Under the pieces are notes generated by a model, which worked only from the letters and a program-made list of their open reading frames with translations, had not been told where the DNA came from and made no database searches. This document shows, one piece after another, positions 54,996 through 59,121 of a stretch of DNA of 64,000 nucleotides. Every line of letters begins with the position of its first letter. Position 1 is the first letter of the stretch. The stretch comes from Thioalkalivibrio versutus. GTDB taxonomy: Bacteria; Pseudomonadota; Gammaproteobacteria; Ectothiorhodospirales; Ectothiorhodospiraceae. Both the position numbers and the translations under genes were made by a program. The stretch lies in the NCBI RefSeq assembly GCF_001999325.1, contig NZ_MVAR01000023.1, positions 1 through 64,000 on the forward strand, written 5' to 3'.

Positions 54996-56156
54996 ATGAG
55001 CAAGCGCAAACATATCCTGGGACGTGCAACGGTGGTTCCCATGACCGTGAGCCTTCTGGTGGCATGCACCGGGTCCTCCGGGGTCTCGGCCGAGGGCCTG
55101 GAGGGCGGGCAGCAGGATCTGCAGGTCAGCGTGCTGCACGAGGAACTGAATCACCCCTGGGCCATCGCCTTCCTGCCCGACGGCGGTGCACTGATCAGCG
55201 AACGCCCGGGCACCCTGCGCTGGTTCGAGGACGCCGAGTCCTTCGACGGGCGGGGCGCGCTGGTCCCGGGGTTGCCGGACGACCTGCAGGCGCGCAACCA
55301 GGGCGGGCTGCTGGATCTTGCGCTGCACCCCAATTTCGCCGACAACCGCTGGCTGTACTTCACCTACTCGGCGAGCGTGGAGAGCGGACTGACGACCCGC
55401 CTGGCGCGTGGGCGCTTCCAGGATGGCGAGCTGCAGGACGTGGAGACATTGTTCACCGCCGAGCCGGGTGTCAGCGGCGGCCGCCACTTCGGCAGCCGCA
55501 TCGTGTTTGACCAGGCCGGGTACGTGTACATCAGCGTGGGTGACCGCGGCGATCGCGATCATGCGCAGGACACCTCCACCCATATCGGCAGCATCATCCG
55601 GCTGCATGACGATGGTTCGGTGCCGGATGACAACCCGTTGGTGGATGAACCCGACGCCCGCCCGGAGATCTGGGCCTGGGGTGTGCGCAACCCGCAGGGC
55701 ATGGTGATGGACCCCGAGACCGGCACCTTCTGGCAGAACGAGCATGGCCCGCGCGGGGGTGACGAGGTCAACATCATCGAACCTGGCCTGAACTACGGCT
55801 GGCCGGTCATTACCCACGGCGAGGAATACCGTGGCGGCCAGGTGGGCGAGGGTCTGACCGAGAAGGAGGGGATGGAGTCACCGCTGCATCACTGGACGCC
55901 TTCCATTGCCCCGTCCGGCATGGCGATCCTGCGCGATCCGGCCTTTGCCGACTGGGATGGTGACCTGCTGGTCGGCGGACTGGCGCACCAGACGCTGCGC
56001 CGCCTGACCTTCGACGGGCGCGACCTGGTCAATGAGTCCGAGGTGCTGCCGGATCTGGATCGCCGTGTGCGCGACGTGCGCGTGCACGAGGGCGCAATCT
56101 ACGTACTTACCGACCACAACCCGGGGGAGCTGATCCGGCTCACCCCGGCTGACTGA
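54996..56156 (+). CDS. PQQ-dependent sugar dehydrogenase-like lipoprotein
   Basis: Predicted periplasmic six-bladed beta-propeller of the glucose/sorbosone dehydrogenase (Asd/YliI) family. The 386-residue precursor has a lipobox LLVACT, then [105 protein letters not shown] and LNYGWPV, the core motifs for PQQ and calcium binding. The actual sugar or other aldose substrate is unknown, and no PQQ-synthesis gene is in the window. GGAG precedes the ATG of [10 protein letters not shown]. It is followed 11 bases later by msrA. Confidence 0.9.
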
Positions 56157-56167
56157 TGGAGTCGCCG

Positions 56168-56800
56168 ATGTTCGCATTTTCCGAGCCGCGCATGCCTGCG
56201 CCCGAGCAGGCCTTGCCCGGGCGCGAGGAGCCGATGCCGGTGCCCGGGCGCCACATGGTGCTGGGAACCCCGTTGGCACCGCCGTACCCCGAGGGCATGC
56301 AGGTGATCCAGTTCGGCATGGGCTGCTTCTGGGGCGCCGAGCGCCTGTTCTGGCAGCTGGACGGGGTGTACTCCACCAGCGTCGGTTACGGTGGGGGCTA
56401 TACCCCGAATCCGACCTATCGCGAGGTATGCAGCGGCCAGACCGGGCACACCGAGCTGGTGCGTGTGGTATTCGATCCGCGGCGAGTCGACCTGGATGCG
56501 CTGTTCCGCACCTTCTGGGAAGGCCACGACCCGACCCAGGGCATGCGCCAGGGCAACGACGTCGGTACCCAGTACCGCTCCGCGATCTACACCACCGATG
56601 CGGACCAGCTGGCGGCCGCCGAGACCAGCCGCCAACGCTTCCAGGCCGCGCTGGACAAGGCACGGGGCGGAACGATCACCACCGAGATCGGCGAAGGGCC
56701 GGCGTTCTATTTCGCCGAAGAGGATCACCAGCAATACCTGGCCAAGGTCCCCCACGGCTACTGCGGCCTCGGCGGCCTCTCCGTGCCGTACCCGGCCTGA
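56168..56800 (+). CDS. msrA: Peptide-methionine (S)-S-oxide reductase MsrA
   Basis: Reduces the S-epimer of methionine sulfoxide. The 210-residue protein keeps the catalytic [60 protein letters not shown] and the closing [11 protein letters not shown] with a recycling cysteine. The N-terminal 50 residues are proline-rich and unlike the core. I prefer the ATG at 56168, which has GGAG six bases upstream, over the one overlapping the preceding stop (56156). Confidence 0.96.
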
Positions 56801-56839: not shown

Positions 56840-57670
56840 TTAGCCGTTGTTGGCGGCGGCCTGAACGAGGGCGTGGAACAGACGCTGGTGGCGGCGCTTC
56901 TGGGGCAGGTATTCCGGGTGCCACTGCACGCCGATGCACCAGCCGCGGTCGGCTTCGATCGCCTGTACCACGCCGCTGCTCTCGCGGCCGGCGACCCTTA
57001 GCCCGCGACCCAGGCCATCCACCGCCTGATTGTGCAGGGCGTTCACGTGCAGCGTGGCGTCGCCCAGGATGTCGGCCAGGTGGCTGCGCGGCTCCAGCTG
57101 GACCGGCTTGACCGGCAACAGGCTGCGGGCCTGCGGTGTTTCCACGTAGAACTCGGCCAGGTCGCGCTGCAGCGTGCCGCCGCGCACCACGTTGACCAGC
57201 TGCATGCCGCGGCAGATGCCGAGGATCGGGCGGTGATCGTCCAGCGCGCGGTGGATCAGGGCCTTCTCCAGGCGGTCGCGGTCGACGTCCAGTACCCCGC
57301 CGTGCGACTGGAACAGCCGGCGCAGCAGCCACAGGGCCGGGTAGAAGAGATAGCCGATCAGCCGTTGCGAGAGGCGGCGCTCCGCCTGGCGGATGGCCGC
57401 CGCATCCGGCCCGTCGGGCAGGGTCTCGCCGTAGAGCTCGGGGTCGACATCCGCCCCGCCGCCCACGATCAGTCCGTCGAACGGGCAACGGCCGCGCGGC
57501 TTTCCCGGGCGCAACCGCAAAGGGCGGCCTCCCGCGCGCCACACCGCCAGGGCGGTGAACAGCCAGGCCGGACCCCCGCCCTGGTCCGGCCCGGTGATCG
57601 CGATCACCGGGCGACGGGCTTGGGGCGTGACCCGGCTGGTTGCATTGGGAGCCGAGTCAGAACCAGTCAC
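56840..57670 (-). CDS. Class I glutamine amidotransferase-like peptidase (C26, PuuD-like)
   Basis: Glutamine-amidotransferase-fold thiol hydrolase, about 276 residues. The catalytic cysteine is in LGICRGMQLVNV and the histidine in GVQWHPEYLP; LIVGGGADVDPELYGE near residue 60 and NALHNQAVDGLG are typical of the gamma-glutamyl-GABA hydrolase (PuuD) and peptidase C26 group. The start is uncertain; GTG 57670 overlaps the amidoligase stop by 14 bases, so coupling is likely. Pfam describes Amidoligase_2 genes in proteobacteria as neighbours of just such an amidotransferase-like peptidase, so the two probably make and cut one amide. The substrate is unknown. Confidence 0.87.
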   Translation of the reverse strand: MTGSDSAPNATSRVTPQARRPVIAITGPDQGGGPAWLFTALAVWRAGGRPLRLRPGKPRGRCPFDGLIVGGGADVDPELYGETLPDGPDAAAIRQAERRLSQRLIGYLFYPALWLLRRLFQSHGGVLDVDRDRLEKALIHRALDDHRPILGICRGMQLVNVVRGGTLQRDLAEFYVETPQARSLLPVKPVQLEPRSHLADILGDATLHVNALHNQAVDGLGRGLRVAGRESSGVVQAIEADRGWCIGVQWHPEYLPQKRRHQRLFHALVQAAANNG

Positions 57671-58649
57671 GGAGGCGCTGGCTCCAGTCGTCGGCCCAGC
57701 GGCCGAGGGCCTGGCCGGGGCGGTCCAGGTATTCCCGCGACAGGCGCTCCAGGCGTTCCGGATCCGCCGCCAGGCGTTCCACCTCGACCCAGCCATTGAA
57801 CGGTCGCGCCAGGCTCCAGTCCGGGTCGTCGATCTCGCAGTTCGGCAGGCGGTAATGGAAGGCCGGGCGCGGTTTGATCAAGTCGTGTTCCACCGGTGCG
57901 GCGTTGACCCGTTCCGGGTCCAAGTGGGCAAACAAGGGCAACAGGTCCAGTGGTCGGTTGCGCGTCGGGCTGTGTGCCAGGTAGGCATCGATCAGGCCGG
58001 CCTGATCGGGTTGGAAGTCCGGGTCCAGCATGTGGCGTACAAAGGGCCCGGGAAATGCCCGAATGTAGGGCGACAGTCGCCGTGCCAGGTCGATTGCGCC
58101 GGCCGCGGTGAGGGCCTCGGCCATCAGCAGGAAGCTGCGCAGGATCGCCAGCAGCCACTCGGCATCGGTGCGGTGGATCTCGATATTGATCTGCAACCCG
58201 AAGGCGTAGAGAAACGAGCGTTCGGTGCCCTGGGCGCCGGCCTCTTGCAGGGCCGCGCGTACCCGGTCCAGGCGGGGCAGGTCGGCCACCGGGATCGGCG
58301 GGGCCACGATTTCATGCGGCACCAGGCGGCCGGCGGCGTCGGCCAGCCAGCGATCCAGCGCCGCCTTGTCGGAGTCGTCCAGCGAGATGCCGAGGCGCGC
58401 GAGATGCTCGCGGTAGGCCCGGTCCTTCAGCACCCGGGCGTCCAGTTCCAGCTGGAAGTCGCCGACGTCGGTATCGCGCACGCGGGCGACGAACGCACTG
58501 TCCGGTTCGATCTGCCCTCCGAATTCGGCCTTTACTGCTTCGGCCATAATCTCCAGCGAGACCCCGGCCATCTCGATCTCTACCCCGATGCGGCGCGGTT
58601 CGCCCTCGGGGGTGTCGGGCCACGGGAGGTCGTGGAAGGGCTCGCTCAT
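57657..58649 (-). CDS. Putative amidoligase (Amidoligase_2 family)
   Basis: Predicted ATP-dependent COOH-NH2 ligase with the glutamine-synthetase/glutamate-cysteine-ligase fold, 330 residues. The first beta strand has the metal-binding glutamates of the fold in RRIGVEIEMAGVS (E24, E26), followed by the family-like IEPDSAFVA and FQLELDARV. Further on, QINIEIHRTD carries a metal-site glutamate and histidine, and RPAFHYRLPNCEI and SLARPFNGWVEVERLA close the domain. It does not match true GshA in length. Its reaction, product and carrier are not known. I start at ATG 58649 (MSEPFHDLPW); upstream ATGs lack a ribosome site. It is divergent from folB and coupled to the amidotransferase gene. Confidence 0.85.
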   Translation of the reverse strand: MSEPFHDLPWPDTPEGEPRRIGVEIEMAGVSLEIMAEAVKAEFGGQIEPDSAFVARVRDTDVGDFQLELDARVLKDRAYREHLARLGISLDDSDKAALDRWLADAAGRLVPHEIVAPPIPVADLPRLDRVRAALQEAGAQGTERSFLYAFGLQINIEIHRTDAEWLLAILRSFLLMAEALTAAGAIDLARRLSPYIRAFPGPFVRHMLDPDFQPDQAGLIDAYLAHSPTRNRPLDLLPLFAHLDPERVNAAPVEHDLIKPRPAFHYRLPNCEIDDPDWSLARPFNGWVEVERLAADPERLERLSREYLDRPGQALGRWADDWSQRLRDWF

Positions 58650-58755: not shown

Positions 58756-59121
58756 ATGGATCGAATCTATCTGCGCGACCTCGAAATCGATGCCGTTGTT
58801 GGTGTCTACGACTGGGAACAGCGGATCCAGCGCCGCCTGCGATTCGACATCGAACTGGCGGCGGATACCCGCATCGCCGCCTATTCCGGCGAGATCGGCG
58901 ATACCGTCGATTACGAGGCGGTGGCCAACGCGGTGCGCGCCATCGTCACGCGCGAGCCGCACGCGCTGCTGGAATCCCTGGCCGAAGAGATCGCCGAGGC
59001 CCTGATGGCCCAGTTCGGCACCCCCTGGGTGCGCATCAAACTGGGCAAGCCCGGGGCCGTTCCCGGTGTACGCGAGGTCGGCATCGAGATCGAGCGCGGC
59101 ACCCTCGCGACGTCCGACTAG
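58756..59121 (+). CDS. folB: Dihydroneopterin aldolase
   Basis: Converts 7,8-dihydroneopterin to 6-hydroxymethyl-dihydropterin plus glycolaldehyde in folate synthesis. The 121-residue octameric enzyme starts MDRIYLRDLEIDAVVGVYDWEQ with the conserved glutamate, then DTVDYEAVANAV and LLESLAEEIAEAL, and ends VGIEIERG. A ribosome site AGGAG lies 15 bases upstream, with GAG nearer. It faces away from the amidoligase gene with a 106-base gap. Confidence 0.96.
   Translation: MDRIYLRDLEIDAVVGVYDWEQRIQRRLRFDIELAADTRIAAYSGEIGDTVDYEAVANAVRAIVTREPHALLESLAEEIAEALMAQFGTPWVRIKLGKPGAVPGVREVGIEIERGTLATSD

Follow-up and report, generated by a model that had tools for sequence, protein, structure and literature searches.

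Pairs of an Amidoligase_2 protein (PF12224) and a glutamine-amidotransferase-like thiol peptidase are already noted for proteobacteria in the Pfam entry of the ligase family, and a 2009 survey of amidoligases reportedly described the same pairing in this group. The pairing itself is of an already known type; no assigned product of the Amidoligase_2 family was found in the literature searched. The polyamine gamma-glutamylation systems PuuA/PuuD of Escherichia coli and SpuA of Pseudomonas likewise bring together a ligase of the glutamine synthetase (GS) fold and a C26 hydrolase. The pair analysed here lies in a 64,000-nucleotide stretch of Thioalkalivibrio versutus DNA (contig NZ_MVAR01000023.1; hereafter the window). 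We lean, with slightly more confidence than doubt, towards reading it by analogy as a PuuA/PuuD-like gamma-glutamylation and deglutamylation module that operates outside the Puu polyamine pathway, on an amine that is possibly membrane-associated.

Both genes lie on the minus strand. The amidoligase gene (57657-58649, ATG start) encodes a 330-residue protein that Pfam, AlphaFold, VIA-align and dN/dS analyses characterize as a predicted glutamine-synthetase-fold, ATP-dependent amide ligase, and the Peptidase_C26 gene (PF07722; 56840-57670, GTG start) encodes a 276-residue protein that Pfam, AlphaFold and VIA-align mark as a predicted gamma-glutamyl-amide hydrolase with Cys153, His251 and Glu253. 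The overlap between the ligase stop and the hydrolase GTG start was read directly as 14 bp on the minus strand (57657-57670, GTGACTGGTTCTGA), which bears out the overlapping gene pair of the original prediction along with the outer coordinates it gave for the C26 gene. An overlap at the same relative position occurs in several Thioalkalivibrio and Desulfurivibrio loci, and its presence suggests translational coupling of ligase and hydrolase. Measured against four relatives, dN/dS comes to 0.09-0.13 in the ligase gene and to 0.14-0.17 in the hydrolase gene; these ratios indicate purifying selection on both genes, and neither frame can therefore be a chance open reading frame. The host genome holds a single ligase and a single strong C26 gene, the further C26-profile matches being weak and located elsewhere, and the closest relative of the ligase, at 97% identity, comes from Thioalkalivibrio sp. 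ALMg11.

Neither flanking gene was counted as part of the system. Downstream of the C26 gene lies a convergent gene for a peptide methionine sulfoxide reductase (PMSR by Pfam, msrA-like; 56156-56800), which was left out because of its convergent orientation despite being kept in this position across much of the host family. On the other side folB (PF02152, E 6e-30; 58756-59121, plus strand) is divergent from the pair, as had been stated, and this neighbour had led to the suggestion of a role for the two enzymes in folate or pterin polyglutamylation. We consider that suggestion very improbable and have discarded it: folB stands next to the pair in all of Thioalkalivibrio, but neither the family's other genera nor Desulfurivibrio nor other classes show this arrangement, so that the adjacency is best described as genus-level synteny.

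The assignment of the ligase to Amidoligase_2 is clear from its profile match, which scores 195.8 bits against a curated cut-off of 22 (E 1.5e-57) and spans positions 1-244 of the 245 in the model. At E 0.001 no other Pfam family matched the protein, the GS family (Gln-synt_C) included. An AlphaFold model built from 45 aligned ligases has a mean pLDDT of 91.5 and aligns with glutamine synthetase (5dm3) at a VIA-align Z of 12.9 (210 residues, rmsd 3.5), and the 50 entries shown are GS or GS-family enzymes throughout. Foldseek returned weak matches to the same model, the best being to YbdK (E 2.7e-3), followed by glutamate-cysteine ligase and GS, and no relative emerged when the PDB was searched by sequence, the single match (E 0.45) being at chance level. 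The modelled ligase thus has a glutamine-synthetase-like fold, in agreement with the original prediction and with the fold of PF12224. Ten residues are invariant among the 45 aligned ligases (R19, E24, E26, D70, E113, N155, R230, R261, H265 and R267); E24 and E26, which had been described as intact, are among them, and by analogy with the metal-binding ExE strand of GS we take them as putative metal ligands. ATP-dependent amide bond formation would be the activity expected of such an enzyme. Neither outcome that the original prediction had named as refuting it, a modelled ligase with no ATP or metal site or relatives that separate the two genes, was encountered, the putative metal site being judged by the invariance of this acidic pair.

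The weak structural matches of the ligase also include PafA and Dop, two GS-fold enzymes, and these fit a reading in which the pair would attach an amino acid or peptide as a tag to a protein or a secreted peptide and take it off again. Peptide modification was reportedly proposed for some families of the amidoligase superfamily in a 2009 comparative study, which would favour the same reading. Against it, among neighbours of 80-90 residues or more no conserved small-peptide gene and no export gene recurs near the pair, and we judge a tagging role to be quite unlikely. A phage origin or phage relatives of the ligase were ruled out, neither phage records nor PHROG giving a match; plasmid records contained 11 relatives. 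Elsewhere, a second, divergent PF12224 subfamily of about 318 residues was observed beside a GATase_6 glutamine amidotransferase in two loci (L113:8234-9190 and L149:8586-9545), where the ligase copies are near identical by eye although the genomes belong to different families. In L113 this gene adjoins BREX BrxF and BrxC genes, and this suggests a mobile or defence-island version of the amidoligase-amidotransferase pair.

The hydrolase belongs to Peptidase_C26 by its PF07722 match (E 3e-39, 135.5 bits, cut-off 20.5), and PF00117 matches the same protein at E 6.5e-14. Its Cys-His-Glu triad is intact, C153, H251 and E253 of the GICRG and GVQWHPE motifs being invariant in 39 of 39 aligned hydrolases, as predicted for the catalytic cysteine and histidine. 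The AlphaFold model (pLDDT 86.8) aligns best with Lin1909 (VIA-align Z 28.6), PuuD (27.9) and the SpuA glutamyl-thioester structure (27.2), while the domains of ammonia-producing class-I glutamine amidotransferases (GATases) rank below at a Z of about 21 at most. The protein is accordingly a class-I amidotransferase-fold thiol peptidase, as proposed, whose model stands nearer to the PuuD/SpuA-type gamma-glutamyl hydrolases than to the ammonia-transferring class-I GATases. Its gamma-glutamyl specificity would follow by homology with those enzymes. A defence system identity was rejected for the pair after PADLOC matched neither protein.

The main rival to a PuuA/PuuD-like cycle is a glutamine-dependent amidation complex, in which the C26 protein would act as the glutaminase subunit and supply the amidoligase with ammonia, the two forming a two-subunit synthetase that amidates a carboxylate in the manner of MurT/GatD. 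The class-I GATase fold with its complete triad and the PF00117 match agree with such a role, and the gene overlap and co-inheritance would suit a complex, but profile and structure both group the protein with PuuD and SpuA, well above the ammonia producers, and we regard the glutaminase reading as unlikely. The same structural ranking brings in a different alternative, in which the two genes would encode a variant form of polyamine breakdown by the Puu (gamma-glutamyl-putrescine) pathway: PuuD and SpuA are the closest of the solved relatives of known function, and puuA and puuD adjoin in E. coli. The C26 protein nevertheless scores 76.2 bits against the PuuD equivalog NF008471, whose cut-off is 266, the ligase is a PF12224 protein with no GS-family Pfam match, and neither an oxidase nor an aldehyde dehydrogenase is among the recurrent neighbours. 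Nor was the gamma-glutamylputrescine oxidase PuuB found in the genome, the only two matches there being short, at 57-69 residues (best E 7e-5, 39% over 69 residues). A Puu variant has, in our estimate, a low probability; the classical pathway is unlikely because PuuB is absent, and we ruled it out on that absence together with the distance of the C26 protein from the PuuD equivalog cut-off.

Among 68 related loci, to which a few genomes contribute two and some of which are close kin, the C26 gene lies directly downstream of the ligase on the same strand in 61. The expectation that related genomes would keep the two genes together is thereby borne out, and with the GS fold and the PuuD/SpuA-type hydrolase this lends support to the proposed "make and cut" pairing. 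The remaining seven loci have a ligase with no adjacent C26 gene, which tells against the glutaminase-subunit reading and also counts against the cycle preferred here. Several of the Haliea ligases (L033 and related loci) are of this kind while L031 and L036, also from Haliea, retain the C26 gene, and we read these cases as recent loss or relocation of C26. The ligase occurs in 43 of 47 genomes of the host family (36 of the 38 well-assembled ones) and in about 5-6% of the sampled genomes of the class and phylum. Two near-complete members of the host family (G106 and G788) have neither the ligase nor this C26 gene; a third (G749) carries a ligase copy with a C26 remnant adjoining it in place of an intact gene, and a fourth (G789) has both genes, unlinked.

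The two genes also appear to share a history. Ligase and C26 trees, both quick reconstructions that have several long branches and no support values other than SH-aLRT, agree in an insert-bearing clade and in a Desulfurivibrio branch inside Thioalkalivibrio. This branch comprises the pairs of Desulfurivibrio and a Desulfobulbaceae bacterium (L025, L026 and L027; Thermodesulfobacteriota), and the copy from this group that was aligned (L025) carries the insert. Because Desulfurivibrio branches inside Thioalkalivibrio, the whole pair was probably transferred between these sulfur bacteria into Desulfurivibrio. Thioalkalivibrio and Desulfurivibrio are both soda-lake sulfur bacteria.

The original prediction had proposed looking for a conserved third gene near such pairs. 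Clustering of neighbours in related loci yielded no universal third gene, but one family that had not been predicted, the VTT/DedA-superfamily membrane proteins, was the sole recurrent and mostly co-oriented one besides the pair. Of the 68 loci, which are not independent of one another, 16 have a VTT gene in the vicinity of the pair; 15 of these genes share its strand and 13 adjoin it directly. Chance would place one within about 5 kb in about 0.9 of 68 loci, as calculated from 166 VTT matches in 35 genomes totalling about 135 Mb. The last eleven loci came from one alphaproteobacterial order, picked since a member showed the association; when they are excluded the count is 12 of 57, nine of them adjacent. 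PF09335 was confirmed in eight representatives. The YqaA-like proteins, whose matches to E. coli YqaA reach E 7.6e-24, are encoded 3' of C26 (L114, L121-L124 and, as a partial frame, L126), 5' of the ligase (L220) or about 2.2 kb further on (L116, L117), and the TVP38-like proteins 3' of C26 (L142, L215, L217, L218), 5' of the ligase (L128, L178) or on the opposite strand (L172). A 4-bp overlap between the VTT frame and the C26 stop occurs in L114, L142 and L215. A search of the order of G242 added no further YqaA-adjacent pairs, because only G242 carries the ligase there. The YqaA subfamily (COG1238) is little known, and uncharged or positively charged lipids have been suggested for it in a 2023 DedA survey (PMC10127716).

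The pair in the window has no VTT neighbour, and since VTT genes are not adjacent in Thioalkalivibrio, the one feature that would link the window to a membrane is an insert in its C26 protein. About 30 extra residues follow the YGE segment in the alignment of hydrolases from Thioalkalivibrio and relatives, Desulfurivibrio, G072 and G140; in the window they correspond to residues about 97-125 (57296-57382, minus strand), and AlphaFold models residues 100-120 as a helix. The insert has a hydrophobic core, LIGYLFYPALWLL, with arginines on both flanks, and E97, P111 and R117 are invariant in all 12 insert-bearing rows, the core in the window reading LIGYLFYPALWLLRR. With Kyte-Doolittle values of 1.1-2.2 over 17 residues, its hydrophobicity is moderate, more like that of an interfacial or docking helix than of a transmembrane segment, and it may serve either for docking to the membrane or for docking to the ligase. 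A hydrophobic moment scan of the protein did not single out the insert as its most amphipathic stretch, and we therefore make no claim of amphipathicity.

Taken as a PuuA/PuuD-like module, the pair would work as a cycle. This preferred reading starts from what was observed for the pair directly, namely two reading frames under purifying selection, modelled folds and invariance of the catalytic residues to be expected, and two genes that are strongly paired, share a history and are missing together in two relatives, and we infer by analogy the use of ATP, glutamate as the acyl donor and the hydrolytic direction. The amidoligase would activate a carboxylate with ATP, most likely the gamma-carboxyl of glutamate, and join it to an amine; the C26 enzyme would later hydrolyse the gamma-glutamyl amide through a Cys153 thioester, such that the cycle may protect, mask or mark the amine and then release it. 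Folds, families and pairing thus agree with the earlier idea that one enzyme makes and the other hydrolyses an amide, and its gamma-glutamyl nature is suggested by homology. The amine may perhaps be membrane-associated, either a lipid head group or a lipid-linked compound, given that many relatives have a VTT/DedA gene with the pair and that a conserved hydrophobic helix is present in the C26 protein of this clade. A more specific and speculative version, to which we give a small but real chance, is a membrane-lipid glutamylation cycle in which the ligase would glutamylate an amine-bearing lipid or lipid-linked compound, a VTT protein of the YqaA or TVP38 type would move the product across the membrane and a membrane-docked C26 would deglutamylate it. 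If true, this would be the first biochemical setting for the YqaA subfamily. Should the VTT/DedA link itself be upheld in wider sampling, the search for a substrate could be confined to membrane-associated amines instead of covering all amines, and the link would offer a handle on this poorly understood subfamily.

A limited literature search found no earlier description of the VTT/DedA association or of the C26 insert, and it is in these two respects that the pair departs from the described pairs of PF12224 and a thiol peptidase. The two families, their order and the gene overlap are the same; what differs is the additional helix, about 30 residues long, in the C26 protein of this clade and, in relatives of the pair, the recurrent VTT/DedA-superfamily neighbour. 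Comparison with PuuA/PuuD gives likeness in the combination of ligase fold and hydrolase family, while the window ligase belongs to another family lacking Gln-synt_C, PuuB is absent and the C26 protein lies far under the PuuD equivalog cut-off. The gshA locus of E. coli K-12, where yqaA adjoins gshA (L185:5513-5941), resembles the relatives of the pair in placing a gamma-glutamyl ligase of the GS-like superfamily beside a YqaA-type DedA gene. It differs in that GshA is of another ligase family with no C26 neighbour and yqaA is located upstream, about 72 bp away. This adjacency, which may have arisen by chance, provides a second case in which a YqaA-type gene neighbours one for a gamma-glutamyl ligase.
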